DNA of 64,000 nt, from assembly GCF_035207705.1 (NCBI RefSeq), contig NZ_CP128187.1, positions 4,340,001 through 4,404,000 of the forward strand, given 5' to 3'. A program made the translations under genes and the position numbers. Source of the stretch: Maribacter sp. BPC-D8 (GTDB lineage: Bacteria; Bacteroidota; Bacteroidia; Flavobacteriales; Flavobacteriaceae). This document shows positions 5,783 to 44,805 of this stretch, in pieces. Each line of letters opens with the position of its first letter. Position 1 is the stretch's first letter. The notes under the pieces were generated by a model. It searched no databases and had not been told where the DNA came from. It saw nothing but the letters and a program-made list of their open reading frames with translations.

Positions 5783-6235
5783 AGCTGGTTTATTGGTTTG
5801 CAACTAATTTAAGAAATACAAATTGAATTGGAAAAGCTCAAAAGAATCCATTCCTTTCATAAGAGTATAGGTTTTCGTTTTGGTTGTGGGTTGTTGGGAG
5901 TTTGGTTTTTAGAATAGTTGCTTCGTCTGTTTTATCTAAAAAGTTTAAAAAAAGTCACAATCTATTCCCCTCTCGGGAGGGGCTAGGGGTGGGTAGTTTG
6001 TAAGTTAGAATGTTGAATGCATGTTCCAGTTGAAGAATTTGGTGAGAGTTGCGTTTTTAATTTCAGCATAGTACACCGTAGCACCCACCCCTCAATCCCC
6101 TCCCAAAAGGGGAGGAATACGTTTTTGGTTGTGGGTTTGTTACTGCTTGGGAGATTTGTTTTTACAAGAGTTATTTCGTCTGTTTTATCTAAAAAGTTTA
6201 AAAAAAGTCACAATCTATTCCCCTCTTGGGAGGGG

Positions 6236-6619
6236 CTAGGGGTGGGTATTTGATTGTTCTAGTTTCTTAATTTCTACTTTAATTTCCTCTAAAACAAAAG
6301 TCAGATTATCTTTTACATCAGTATCAGAAAATCTAATCATTATTACTCCTAATGACTCTAATTTAGATTGCCTTCGCTTATCTTTTTCTTCATGCCCTTC
6401 TTCAAAGTGAATACTGCCATCTACTTCTATGGCGAGTTGGAGGTCTTTGCAATAAAAATCAACTATATATTGGTCAATGGGTATTTGTCTACTAAACTTA
6501 TGTCCTAGTTTTTTGCTTTTAATTTCTCGCCAAAGCGCAATTTCACCAAGGGTCATGTTATTCCTTAAGTTTTTAGCTAGGTCTACTAAATATGGGTGGT
6601 ATGGTATAATTTTTCTCAT
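6236..6619 (-). CDS. DUF559 restriction-like endonuclease
   Basis: About 127 residues from the preferred start MRKIIPYHPYLVDLAKNLRN at 6619. An upstream Met at 6649 would translate repeat DNA. The protein is a typical DUF559/Vsr-like nuclease: NMTLGEIALWREIKSKKLG, FSRQIPIDQYIVDFYC, then LAIEVDGSIHF, which supplies the D and E-x-D of a PD-(D/E)xK active site. The gene sits exactly in the place of one inter-unit spacer. Its start is 8 bases from a degenerate left arm (6627-6657), and its last codons (T-H-P-stop) and TAG stop are read from the CACCCCTAG of the right arm at 6219-6247. It may be the mobility or maintenance protein of the repeat family, which is inference. No methyltransferase is nearby. 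Confidence 0.85.
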   Translation of the reverse strand: MRKIIPYHPYLVDLAKNLRNNMTLGEIALWREIKSKKLGHKFSRQIPIDQYIVDFYCKDLQLAIEVDGSIHFEEGHEEKDKRRQSKLESLGVIMIRFSDTDVKDNLTFVLEEIKVEIKKLEQSNTHP

Positions 6620-6787
6620 CGTAGAATCCACCCTTTTATCCCTTCCCAAGTGGGTAGATGTACGCTTTTGATTGCGAAATTAGAGTTAGTCGAAACTTCT
6701 ATTTTCATAAGAATAATTTGGTATTGAATATATTTTAATCACAGTCACTATCTGTTCCCCTCTCGGGAGGGGCTAGGGGTGGGTTCT

Positions 6788-7012
6788 TTATTCTATAATT
6801 TCATAGTCAATACTTAACTTTCTCAAAGCTCTTAAAGCTGATCCAGAATTTTTATCGCTTACTTCAATATCTACTGCATCACCTTCTAAAAGTATATCTG
6901 TAAGTTCATTAGCAAGCGAATCGCTAACGTTTGACGATAATTCTGCTATACATTTTGTTATCGCTCTTCTGTCTGGTCGTTGAGCATCACAAGACAATAA
7001 GTTTAGTTTCAT
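6788..7012 (-). CDS. small protein of unknown function, 74 aa
   Basis: The reading frame from MKLNLLSCDAQRPDRRAITK (an upstream Met at 7033 is less likely) encodes a compact alpha/beta protein ending SALRALRKLSIDYEIIE. The alternating hydrophobic pattern, two predicted helices and a terminal beta strand resemble ribosomal L7/L12 C-terminal-like small domains, but I do not recognise the family. The gene lies between two copies of the right repeat arm (6755-6784 and the remnant at 7067-7094); its stop is 3 bases from the first. Codon use looks coding and no gene opposes it. Function unknown. Confidence 0.6.
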   Translation of the reverse strand: MKLNLLSCDAQRPDRRAITKCIAELSSNVSDSLANELTDILLEGDAVDIEVSDKNSGSALRALRKLSIDYEIIE

Positions 7013-7831
7013 AGTTTTAGTTTGTTGCTGCAAGATACTAGAGTTTAATTAAAGGCAGACTCTATTTCTGTTAGGTTCTAGCTAGGAGTGGGTAGCTTGA
7101 TTGTTAGTTTGTTGCAATTTTCATCATCTCGACACCCACCCCTTTATCCCCTCCCAAGAGGGGAGGATTTCGTTTTGTTCGCGGGTTAGTTGTTTGTTGT
7201 GAGTTTCGTTTCTACAAGAACTACCTCGTCTGTTTTATCCAAAAAGTTTAATCATAGTCACTTTATGTTCCCCTCTCGTGAGGGGTTTGGGGTGGGTTGT
7301 TTATTAGTTAGAATGTTGAGTGTATGTTCCAATTTAAGAATTTGGTAAAAGTGGCGTTTTTAATTTCTGCATAGTGCACCTGAGAACCCACCCCTTTGGT
7401 CCCCTCCCAAGAGGGGAGGATTTCGTTTATGATTGCGAGTTTAGGTGGTGTTGTGAGTTTCGTTTCCATAAGAGTTAACTTGTCTGATTAATCTAGAAAA
7501 TTGATTTATAGTCAGTATCTGTTCCCCTCTTGGGAGGGGCTAGGGGTGGGTTGTTTGTATGTTAGAATGTTGAATGTACATTCCGGTTGAAGAATTTGGT
7601 GAGGGTGGTGTTTTTAATTTCAGTATAGTGCACTCGAGAACCCACCCCTTTGGTCCCCTCCCAAGAGGGGAGGATTTCGTTTTTGTTTGCGAAATTTTAG
7701 GTTGTTGGTTTTTGATTTTTAATAAGAATTACCTCGTCTGTTTTATCTAAAAAGTTTAATACAAGTCAGAAACTGTTCCCCTCTTGGGAGGGGCTAGGGG
7801 TGGGTAATTGGTTGGGAGAAATAATCTAATA

Positions 7832-11032: not shown

Positions 11033-11713
11033 ACCCATCCCTTTGGTCCCCTCCCGAGAGGGGAGGATTTCGTTTTTGATTGCGAGTTTTTTAGCTGTTG
11101 TGGTTTTTGTTTTAATAAAAGTTACCTCGTCTATTTTATCTCAAAAGTTTATTTCAAGTCACAATCCGTCCCCCTCTAGGGAGGGGCTAGGGGTGGGTCG
11201 TTTGTGAGTTAGAAATTGCAATGCCAGTACTAGTTTCAAGAAGATATAGTGATGGTGGTATTTTTAGATTTGGCATAGTGCACCTGAGAACCCACCCCTT
11301 TGGTCCCCTCTCGAGAGGGGAGGGTTTACGCTTTTTGTTGAGGGTTTTGTTAGTTGTTGGGAGTTTAGTTTCTAGAAGAGTCACTATATCTATTTTATCC
11401 CAAAAGTTTAATACTAGTCAGAATCTGTTCCCCTCTCGGGAGGGGCTAGGGGTGGGTTGTTTGTGAGTTGGAATTTGTAAAACTTGTACTAGTTTCAAGA
11501 AGATATAGTGAGAGTGGCGTTTTTAATTTCTGCATAGTGCACTCGAGAACCCACCCCTTTGGTCCCTTCCCGAGAGGGGAGTATTTCGTTTTGTTTGCGG
11601 GTTAGTTGTTTGTTGTGAGTTTTGTTTTCATAATAGTTACCTCGTCTGATTAATCTAGAAAATTCATTTCTAGTCAGTATCCGTTCCCCTCTCGGGAGGG
11701 GCTAGGGGTGGGT
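11033..11713. repeat. palindromic repeat array, cluster 2
   Basis: Three further units of the same GC-rich inverted-repeat family at 11033-11198, 11290-11457 and 11549-11713 (165-168 bp each). They are separated by 91 bp spacers that are conserved with each other and partly with those of cluster 1 (shared GCATAGTGCACC-type end). Arms again read ACCCACCCCTTTGGTCCCCT and CCCCTCTCGGGAGGGGCTAG. The array is in the same orientation as cluster 1, 3.2 kb away. Together with the flanking 120 bp it fills the 889 bp between the amidohydrolase and PepSY genes. No gene is supported inside it. Confidence 0.93.
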
Positions 11714-43143: not shown

Positions 43144-44805
43144 TTAAATTATTATTGATGCCTTAAAGCCATCACCTTGCTTAGATTCAAAATTAATAGT
43201 TCCATTTAAAGAAGCGATACGGGATTCCGTATGTTGGAGGCCATTTTTTTTAAAAAGATCACAACCCACCCCATTATCGCGGTAAATTATTTGAATTTTA
43301 GACCCTTCTTTTTTGAAAACTAGCGTAACAAATGATGCTTGACTATGCTTACGCATATTGGTCATAAGCTCTTGTAATACCCTATAAATAGCGGTTTTTT
43401 TATGTTCTGTCACAGTATTCCATGGCATTTTAGAAAGGTTGCGGGTAATCACATTAACCTTGTTGTTTTTGTAGCCAAGTAATAAATCATTTAATTGAAG
43501 ATCAAAATCATTTTTTAGGTCAATAGCACTATTTTCTCTTGAAATATCTCTTGTTTTGGTATAAATCTTCTCCATTTCATCAATAACCTTGCTGTCAATA
43601 GTCGAATTATTTTCAAGAGAGGTCATCACTTTATACATGTCGTTAGCTACTTCGTCGTGTACTTTTTTGGCAATTCTGGTTTCTGTTTTATAGATTTCTT
43701 CAATTTTAGCTTTGCGGTATCTGTTGCGATAGATAAAGTAAGAACCAACTAAGATTAAAAAAATAATAAATGCCAGAGCTTGGTAAGCCAATCGCTTGCG
43801 AGATTCTATTTCTTGAAGTAATATGCTGGCTTGAGTTTTTTTCTGTTCTTCGGCAACATTGTATTTTAGAAATGCATTTTTATTTTCTGCTATTTGTTTG
43901 GCATTTGTAATACTATCGGTCAGCTTTTTGTATTCATGAAGTAAGGGATTTCTATCCATATTCATAAGCGTTGAAATAGCTTCAAGTTTAAAGGAACTGC
44001 TGTTAATTTTATCTGATAAGGCTAGCGCATTTTCTGCATATATTCTCGCTTTGGTAGTGTCTTTTTTATCGAGATAAAACTCGGCTAAATGGCTGTTACT
44101 CGAGTGTTGACCAATAAAGTCATTGTTTGTTTCGCGTAACTCTAATGCATTTTTCAAATTTTGTAAACCTTCAGGTAGATTTAATTTAGATTGTACTTGT
44201 CCTAAATTGTCTGCCACTAAAGCTAGTTCGTAGGTATTTAATTGTGCTTGCTTTTTATGTAGTAAAGTATAGATATCAAGTGCTTTGTTATACGCTAATT
44301 CGTCTTTATAGATATTGGCTTTATTATTAAGAATGATAACACTGTCCTTTAATTTGTTCGCTATATCTAAAGCTCTATTGTAAGTTTTTATGGCTTCGTC
44401 GGGGTTGTTAGCAGCTCTGTAAATTCGCCCAAGTTGGTTATATAGTCCTACTCTAGAATTAATCAAGGTGTCTTTGGTAGCCATCGATTCAATGATGTTC
44501 AAAGCTTCTACGACATGATTTTCGCTATTAAAGTTATTTCCTATTTTAAACTCTGCAATAGACAATAGTCTTAAATCATAAATGGCATTTAAGGTGTCGT
44601 TTAATTCTAAATCTTTCTCCTTCTTTTTGGTAAAAAAGTGAATGCCTGATGGTAGGTCATTTGGTTCGCTAGGGTTTACAATGGCATTGCGATAATAAAT
44701 AGAATTATCAGAAGATGTTTGTGCTTTGACGCTTAAAGAAAAGCAAAATGCAATAGCGATGATATTGAAAAGATGCAGTATAAATGAAACCTTGTTATAT
44801 TTCAT
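43144..44805 (-). CDS. TPR-containing membrane histidine kinase (HisKA_3 type)
   Basis: A 553-residue sensor. Signal peptide or first helix (about 10-28), then a periplasmic stretch of tetratricopeptide repeats (about 60-300, including NPDEAIKTYNRALDIANKLK and NKALDIYTLLHKKQAQLNTY). One transmembrane helix (YQALAFIIFLILVGSYFIY, about 343-361). HisKA_3-like dimerisation region with the phosphoacceptor in TRIAKKVHDEVANDMYKVM. ATPase domain with QELMTNMRKHSQASFVTLVF, RDNGVGCD and the usual NarL-type end. Ligand unknown. It probably phosphorylates the adjacent LuxR-type regulator. Confidence 0.92.
   Translation of the reverse strand: MKYNKVSFILHLFNIIAIAFCFSLSVKAQTSSDNSIYYRNAIVNPSEPNDLPSGIHFFTKKKEKDLELNDTLNAIYDLRLLSIAEFKIGNNFNSENHVVEALNIIESMATKDTLINSRVGLYNQLGRIYRAANNPDEAIKTYNRALDIANKLKDSVIILNNKANIYKDELAYNKALDIYTLLHKKQAQLNTYELALVADNLGQVQSKLNLPEGLQNLKNALELRETNNDFIGQHSSNSHLAEFYLDKKDTTKARIYAENALALSDKINSSSFKLEAISTLMNMDRNPLLHEYKKLTDSITNAKQIAENKNAFLKYNVAEEQKKTQASILLQEIESRKRLAYQALAFIIFLILVGSYFIYRNRYRKAKIEEIYKTETRIAKKVHDEVANDMYKVMTSLENNSTIDSKVIDEMEKIYTKTRDISRENSAIDLKNDFDLQLNDLLLGYKNNKVNVITRNLSKMPWNTVTEHKKTAIYRVLQELMTNMRKHSQASFVTLVFKKEGSKIQIIYRDNGVGCDLFKKNGLQHTESRIASLNGTINFESKQGDGFKASIII

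Follow-up and report, generated by a model that had tools for sequence, protein, structure and literature searches.

The window analysed here, 64,000 nucleotides of the genome of Maribacter sp. BPC-D8 (4.78 Mb, a single contig), contains a gene for a DUF559 (PF04480) nuclease between two copies of a repeat. Do the nuclease and the repeat belong together, or are they neighbours by chance? The initial annotation had described the gene as fitted between two repeat arms, with its last three codons and TAG read from the right arm. The open reading frame (ORF) proved to be real, matching the PF04480 profile with an E value of 1.3e-29, and the two arms are mutually inverted and face inward (Table 1). 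The codons ACC CAC CCC TAG (T-H-P-stop) are read as the reverse complement of the 3' arm. The left arm is degenerate as described, but its distance to the start codon is 6 bp and not the 8 bp given before. In the 89-gene Flavobacteriaceae set described below, such an arrangement was not general, the reading frame or stop being overlapped by 11 of the 59 detected 3' arms. Therefore, the reading of the stop from the arm is a frequent accident and not a rule, whereas flanking by arms is a general feature.

Table 1. Coordinates of the DUF559 unit, of gene-less units and of single arms in the window
Feature	Position	Strand	Remarks
DUF559 (PF04480) nuclease gene	6236..6619	-	127 aa; ATG at 6619, TAG 6238-6236; Pfam, AF2 model
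3' arm of DUF559 unit	6219..6247	+	ACCCACCCCTAGCCCCTCCCAAGAGGGGA; hairpin CCCCTC-TTGG-GAGGGG, loop CTA, third strand GGGGTGGG
5' arm of DUF559 unit	6626..6656	-	Degenerate; 6 bp upstream of ATG
Short unit, no gene	5966..6113	.	3' arm 5966-5994, 88-bp spacer, 5' arm 6083-6113
Extra 3'-type arm, between DUF559 unit and host ORF	6756..6784	+	
Extra 5'-type arm	7134..7164	-	Possibly paired with decayed 3' arm at about 7066-7093 (by eye)
Short unit	7269..7417	.	3' arm 7269-7297, 88-bp spacer, 5' arm 7386-7417
Short unit	7523..7671	.	3' arm 7523-7551, 88-bp spacer, 5' arm 7640-7671
3'-type arm, end of 254-bp-period array	7777..7805	+	
5'-type arm, second cluster	11034..11064	-	
Short unit, second cluster	11169..11321	.	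Spacer 91 bp
Short unit, second cluster	11429..11578	.	Spacer 91 bp
3'-type arm, second cluster	11685..11713	+	

The sequence GGGGTGGGT occurs 16 times in the window, compared with 0.09 occurrences expected. A fuller arm pattern gave 20 matches, or 16 sites after overlaps were merged, whereas the same pattern gave no match in 19 of 20 block-shuffled windows and one in the remaining one. In the whole genome, the 3'-type arm pattern has 12 exact matches and its reversed form has none; a pattern covering both arm types has 20 matches. An isolated exact GGGGTGGGT is located at 43264-43272, distant from both clusters of the window. Units lie head to tail with a period of approximately 254-260 bp at 7148-7813 and 11034-11713, and these arrays suggest tandem duplication after arrival. 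Read by eye, positions 7066-7164 resemble a decayed short unit, in which a degenerate 3' arm faces a 5' arm. Part of a predicted 81-aa ORF at 11221-11466 is translated from repeat arms (PLSRGEGLRFLL...FPSREGLGVGCL), and this ORF is probably not genuine. The repeats also cluster around another ORF at 6788-7033 of 81 aa (77 aa), a small host gene without a Pfam match. It was considered as cargo of the element and rejected, being present in 15 of the 36 genomes of the genus as a small host gene. In 5 of the 15 loci of this ORF fetched from relatives (L324, L326, L329, L332, and L333), neither an exact GGGGTGGG nor an exact CCCACCCC was found in a stretch of approximately 3 kb.

The arms mostly differ in sequence among DUF559 subfamilies and have a structural rule in common: a pyrimidine/purine hairpin and a short loop are followed by a purine strand that mirrors the purine strand of the hairpin, with T allowed for A. 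The window arm, with a stem of 6 bp in the 3' copy, obeys this rule. By the same rule, the arms would be members of the known intrastrand-triplex (PIT/TM) repeats (PMC4666352), the triplex fold being predicted here. According to the available text of Holder et al. (PMC4666352), the motifs of E. coli K-12 come as types A and B, distinguished by the second loop, and type A stands with type B in all five inverted pairs of E. coli. The same text reports triplex formation by the E. coli motif in vitro and no protection relative to the control in its in vivo footprint, and it suggests a replication-linked instability of the repeats. DUF559 arms share the hairpin with its mirror purine third strand and the tolerance of A to T, and they too come as two types with different second loops, paired in inverted orientation; at a Planctomycetia locus (L233), the loops TTA in the 5' arm and CCG in the 3' arm correspond to types A and B. 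On the other hand, DUF559 arms bound a nuclease gene and match the nuclease family by family, whereas PMC4666352, in the text available, names no dedicated enzyme; its main text contains no words that start with DUF559, nuclease, or ycjD. The initial annotation knew of no described system of this kind. This has to be divided, since the repeats themselves are a known class, but their partnership with DUF559 was not found in the literature searched. No link of DUF559 or ycjD to the repeats was met within that scope or in the available portions of PMC4666352, PMC3733652, PMC9403480, PMC12817139, and PMC1189080. The repeats and the protein family were each already known.

Of 249 Flavobacteriaceae genomes scanned, 119 had a PF04480 match. 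After fused, weak, and some duplicate matches were excluded, 89 standalone DUF559 loci were analysed with other ORFs of the same loci as controls. An inverted similarity of at least 13 between the 5' and 3' flanks was found at 39 of the 89 DUF559 genes and at 9 of 424 control ORFs (Mann-Whitney p 1e-22). When the triplex rule was applied with a stem of at least 7, both flanks had an arm at 46 of 89 loci compared with 1 of 302 controls, and at least one flank at 73 of 89 compared with 28 of 302; no arm was detected by this strict rule at 16 of the 89 standalone genes. A cross-phylum set consisted of the best 80 loci among the matches listed, from Bacteroidota, Pseudomonadota, Planctomycetes, Chloroflexi, and others. 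In this set, a flank score of at least 16 was reached at 22 of the 72 loci with enough flank and in 2 of 791 controls, and arms at this cut-off were found in 21 of 53 small ORFs and 1 of 18 long or fused ORFs. Among the same listed matches, the triplex rule held on both flanks at 20 of 57 small-ORF loci and none of 215 controls, and on at least one flank at 32 of 57 and 16 of 215, respectively. In ten genomes picked from the cross-phylum loci, a generic arm pattern was found 2 to 54 times per genome, and the reversed control in none of the ten. Arms bound the gene in many lineages, and the question raised in the initial annotation, whether DUF559 homologues elsewhere lack them, is answered by arms flanking the gene in many genera and several phyla.

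A scan for a direct instead of a mirror third strand under the same settings (stem 7) gave two-flank matches at 42 of the 89 loci, which is nearly as high because the third strands are nearly symmetric. Among 102 distinct asymmetric strands, the better fit was to the mirror in 72 and to the direct repeat in 8, with 22 ties; for all 420 asymmetric hairpins, the corresponding numbers were 192, 47, and 181.

The coupling between arm family, copy number, and enzyme was analysed at two levels. Two arm families were present in 10 and 23 of the 249 Flavobacteriaceae genomes (32 genomes together), and a PF04480 match was found in all 32. Among the matches listed, a standalone DUF559 gene was present in at least 27 of these 32 genomes, compared with at least 64 of the 249 overall (p 7e-14), and was absent from the other 5. 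An adjacent arm was found in 10 of 23 genomes, in nine of them from the list of arm places and in one (G134) from its sequence. At the 73 arm-bearing loci of the 89, arm similarity was correlated with protein identity (Mantel r 0.553), and none of 2000 permutations was as high. Paralogues of one genome that were less than 50% identical had unlike arms (similarity 0.33, 17 pairs), whereas proteins of different genomes that were more than 55% identical had alike arms (similarity 0.62, 472 pairs). The arm family tracks the DUF559 subfamily. Among the 36 genomes of the genus of the window, a DUF559 gene at least 68% identical to that of the window was found in 16, with an in-frame stop in 3 of the 16. 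The median number of arms was 10.5 in genomes with this gene and 0 in those without it, a count that includes the gene's own arms and ignores kinship. At least three arms were present in 13 of the 16 genomes with this DUF559 gene and in 1 of the 20 without it (p 3e-6, kinship ignored). Arm copy number goes with the gene within the genus. The initial annotation had proposed to compare strains with and without the gene for repeat copy number; made between species of the genus and not between strains, this comparison gave more repeats where DUF559 is present.

The AF2 model of the window DUF559 protein had a pLDDT of 90.9. Its best structural (Foldseek) matches were 3hrl (E 2.8e-7) and I-Bth0305I (3r3p, E 1.2e-4), together with a weak match to Vsr (1vsr, E 0.27). 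A profile search agreed, with values of 5e-31 for 3hrl and 5e-6 for 3r3p, and Pfam found just PF04480 and the related REase_MTES_1575 in the protein. The initial annotation described DUF559 proteins as Vsr-like; the folds are related, but among solved structures an endonuclease-like protein and I-Bth0305I are nearest to DUF559, and Vsr is remoter. Residues D54, E65, D67, and H71 do not vary among 40 diverse DUF559 members, and the enzyme is therefore probably active. In the available text of PMC1189080, YcjD is placed in the PD-(D/E)XK superfamily and its profile detects Vsr, and in that of PMC9403480 one DUF559 gene is placed in the EDxHD family.

At the genus loci read, the spacers of arm pairs were 42-44, 85-91, or 364-378 bp long, and those of 364-378 bp held DUF559; three larger pairings (349, 409, and 435 bp) merely span the small host ORF. 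The arms themselves are common to the short units and the gene-bearing unit. When the spacers were compared with the ends of the gene, the 5' end of the 42-44-bp spacers matched the 5' end of the gene best of all (rank 1 of 722 offsets), but their 3' end did not (rank 72 of 710), and the 86-91-bp spacers matched best at neither end (rank 30 of 722 at the 5' end and 18 of 710 at the 3' end). On these ranks, the short units may plausibly descend from the unit that carries the gene.

DUF559 was also found in frame inside other genes. RecG proteins with DUF559 inside were encoded at 11 PF04480 loci of 8 genera, with open frames of 846-865 aa and the insertion at one site, which lies between the DEAD and Helicase_C domains according to Pfam in the two proteins checked (L378 and L369). 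By the triplex rule with a stem of at least 6, both arms were present at 7 of the 11 recG loci, at least one at 9, and none at 2. Unlike those of the window, the recG-borne arms face outward; their translation yields peptides such as SPPLTPPKG and SLPSGEVGGA. No intron or intein (Hint) domain was found by Pfam in L378 and L369, in which only RecG/helicase-type, OB fold, and DUF559-type nuclease models matched. The 30 recG loci read from the genus of the window comprised 4 full ones, 2 with short in-frame scars, and 24 uninterrupted ones. In a recG tree, which was used for shape only and whose change counts compare just full with scar rows, the 4 full and 2 scar alleles fell in one supported 13-genome clade together with 7 uninterrupted ones, and in one supported clade of 4, two alleles were full, one was a scar, and one was uninterrupted. 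The pattern possibly reflects repeated gain; since these states fall within one 13-genome clade, one old insertion with several losses is possible as well. The gene leuS carries DUF559 similarly (L379), with an arm found on one side. DUF559 also stands before hemD at four loci (L381, L383, L385, and L386, by Pfam), with both arms at three of them, and before a gene for a PLP-dependent enzyme (L380), where both arms are present. Of all the observations, these in-frame insertions point most clearly to a unit that is mobile or once was.

In E. coli, the DUF559 gene reached by tblastn in two records was ycjD, located between sapF and fabI and matched in 3,365 of 5,426 genomes. Its stop codon TGA lies in a degenerate arm, CACCCTCTCCCTGA. 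In MG1655, TM no. 9 (1,351,204-1,351,239, as given in Table 1 of PMC4666352, which was available in part) lies between fabI and ycjD (1,351,407-1,351,760), 167 bp from the stop of ycjD. The ycjD unit looks partly decayed, because its 5' side has a perfect 17-bp inverted repeat in place of a triplex arm (L274:2936-2980). A clean empty site at ycjD was sought and rejected; the one strain without ycjD examined has the eef operon there, and the available text of PMC12817139 likewise reports the eef operon in place of ycjD in its assemblies. Two-arm units vary among E. coli strains, being absent or reduced at three loci, in a comparison that left out two of the five fetched alleles (L317 and L318). 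At hrpB-mrcB, the pair is lacking in LTC101 and W13-16, and I3 has a single hairpin in its place, reduced from stem to stem. The alx-sstT pair is reduced alike in HB42 and muskdeer13-4, and the fepB-entC pair is missing together with flanking DNA in ATCC 25922. At a given site, some related genomes thus carry a unit and others lack it. A clean target-site duplication was not apparent at the variable E. coli loci or in recG; at hrpB-mrcB, the empty allele differs in flanking bases too. A 91-base arm query gave no match against the E. coli collection, perhaps owing to low-complexity masking.

We consider it rather likely that the DUF559 gene and its two inverted arms form one nuclease-encoding mobile element with triplex-type ends and gene-less derivatives. 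We infer that DUF559 is the responsible enzyme, that it acts on folded arms, and that the DNA is copied by the following route. A nuclease of the Vsr/EDxHD homing-endonuclease fold would recognise its own arm family, most likely, and probably as folded single-stranded DNA. It would nick or cut at the arms, and the arm-bounded DNA could then be copied to new places. The gene-less two-arm units would be non-autonomous derivatives, as REPINs are for RAYT.

The strongest competitor is a homing endonuclease with decorated ends: DUF559 would cut an uninterrupted target and be copied in by double-strand-break repair, and the arms would be appendages or parts of the target that do not move alone. The relation of the protein to I-Bth0305I in fold and sequence, the assignment of a DUF559 gene to the EDxHD family cited above, and the occupation of a single recG site across 8 genera, with a patchy distribution inside one clade of the genus, are in its favour. 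However, many arms stand in gene-less two-arm units or far from any DUF559 match, the window unit is intergenic among repeats and outside any conserved gene, and arm number goes with the gene. We regard this explanation as unlikely.

Alternatively, the triplex repeats may spread otherwise, by replication slippage or recombination at folded DNA or through another enzyme, and DUF559 may settle at the arms because the nuclease cuts there. The 5 of 32 genomes with arms and no standalone DUF559 gene among the matches listed, the E. coli units reduced between hairpin stems, and the replication-linked instability proposed in the available text of PMC4666352 would agree with such a passenger role. It is nevertheless distinctly unlikely, given that the arm family follows the DUF559 subfamily even between paralogues of one genome and that the median number of arms is 0 in genus genomes without this DUF559 gene. 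That the arms are transcription terminators or mRNA-stabilising hairpins common to small genes, with DUF559 nothing special, would suit short GC-rich hairpins near gene ends. This reading was rejected as very improbable on the mirror rule of the third strand, which is superfluous for a terminator; moreover, of the 302 controls from these loci just 1 has arms on both flanks, and arms also lie within open reading frames (recG). That the gene and the repeat array are neighbours by chance, for which nothing speaks beyond the single window, has a negligible probability and was rejected on the excess of GGGGTGGGT in the window, the shuffled windows, the flank tests against controls in Flavobacteriaceae and across phyla, and the gene and arm counts of the genus.

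A broader reading may be put forward tentatively, and we hold it possible though somewhat doubtful: PIT/TM repeats throughout bacteria, including those of E. coli K-12, would be mostly gene-less progeny of a pan-bacterial element that codes only for DUF559/YcjD, whose nuclease reads the folded triplex end, each subfamily its own, with in-frame insertion into housekeeping genes (recG and leuS) being possible. With the mobile-element reading, a class of repeats that is known in E. coli and in hundreds of genomes, and is tied to no enzyme in the literature searched, gains a candidate enzyme, and DUF559/YcjD, a widespread uncharacterised family, a candidate biological role. The element would perhaps also offer an example, from nature, of a DNA triplex being read by a protein. 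The hypothesis is directly testable in E. coli K-12.

Several known systems resemble the DUF559 unit in part. Vsr acts in the repair of T:G mismatches and has a cytosine methylase as its partner. Its fold is related to that of DUF559, as the weak Foldseek match to 1vsr indicates, but the genome of the window has a separate Vsr-like gene (L002), and no arms were found near it in the 3.1 kb examined. This gene is the sole other PF04480 match of the genome at E <= 0.001 and was named Vsr-like from a reading of its sequence, the family search being limited to PF04480; with it present, the window DUF559 was rejected as the Vsr of this genome. The EDxHD homing endonuclease I-Bth0305I (PDB 3r3p) has a catalytic domain homologous by profile and fold, and the in-frame position of DUF559 at a conserved recG site is a further likeness; to our knowledge, homing endonucleases have neither triplex arms nor gene-less derivatives. 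Rickettsia palindromic elements are palindromic and inserted in frame within protein genes, like the DUF559 units in recG, and we know of no nuclease coding or triplex rule for them.

The closest comparison is with RAYT/REPIN. RAYT (TnpA-REP) is an HUH/Y1 tyrosine enzyme, and REPs are tagged with GTAG or CGTC. The DUF559 gene too is flanked by inverted repeats with many gene-less short pairs, and its repeat family too is matched to the enzyme family. DUF559, however, has the PD-(D/E)XK fold and is not an HUH/Y1 tyrosine nuclease, and its arms are purine/pyrimidine triplex motifs and not tagged REPs; neither a GTAG nor a CGTC tag stands at the start of the window arms. The analogy to RAYT drawn in the initial annotation thus holds for the anatomy (a gene between arms, many two-arm units, and two arm types) and fails for the enzyme, which is nearest to 3hrl and I-Bth0305I. 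By this analogy, the DUF559 system would work like RAYT/REPIN without being a member of it, because enzyme class and repeat tag differ. We know of no mobile-element class that matches the enzyme or the end structure of the DUF559 unit; the architecture, a gene between structured ends with short derivatives, is of a known kind. With the DUF559 unit, the RAYT/REPIN arrangement would have been arrived at independently, through a nuclease of another family.
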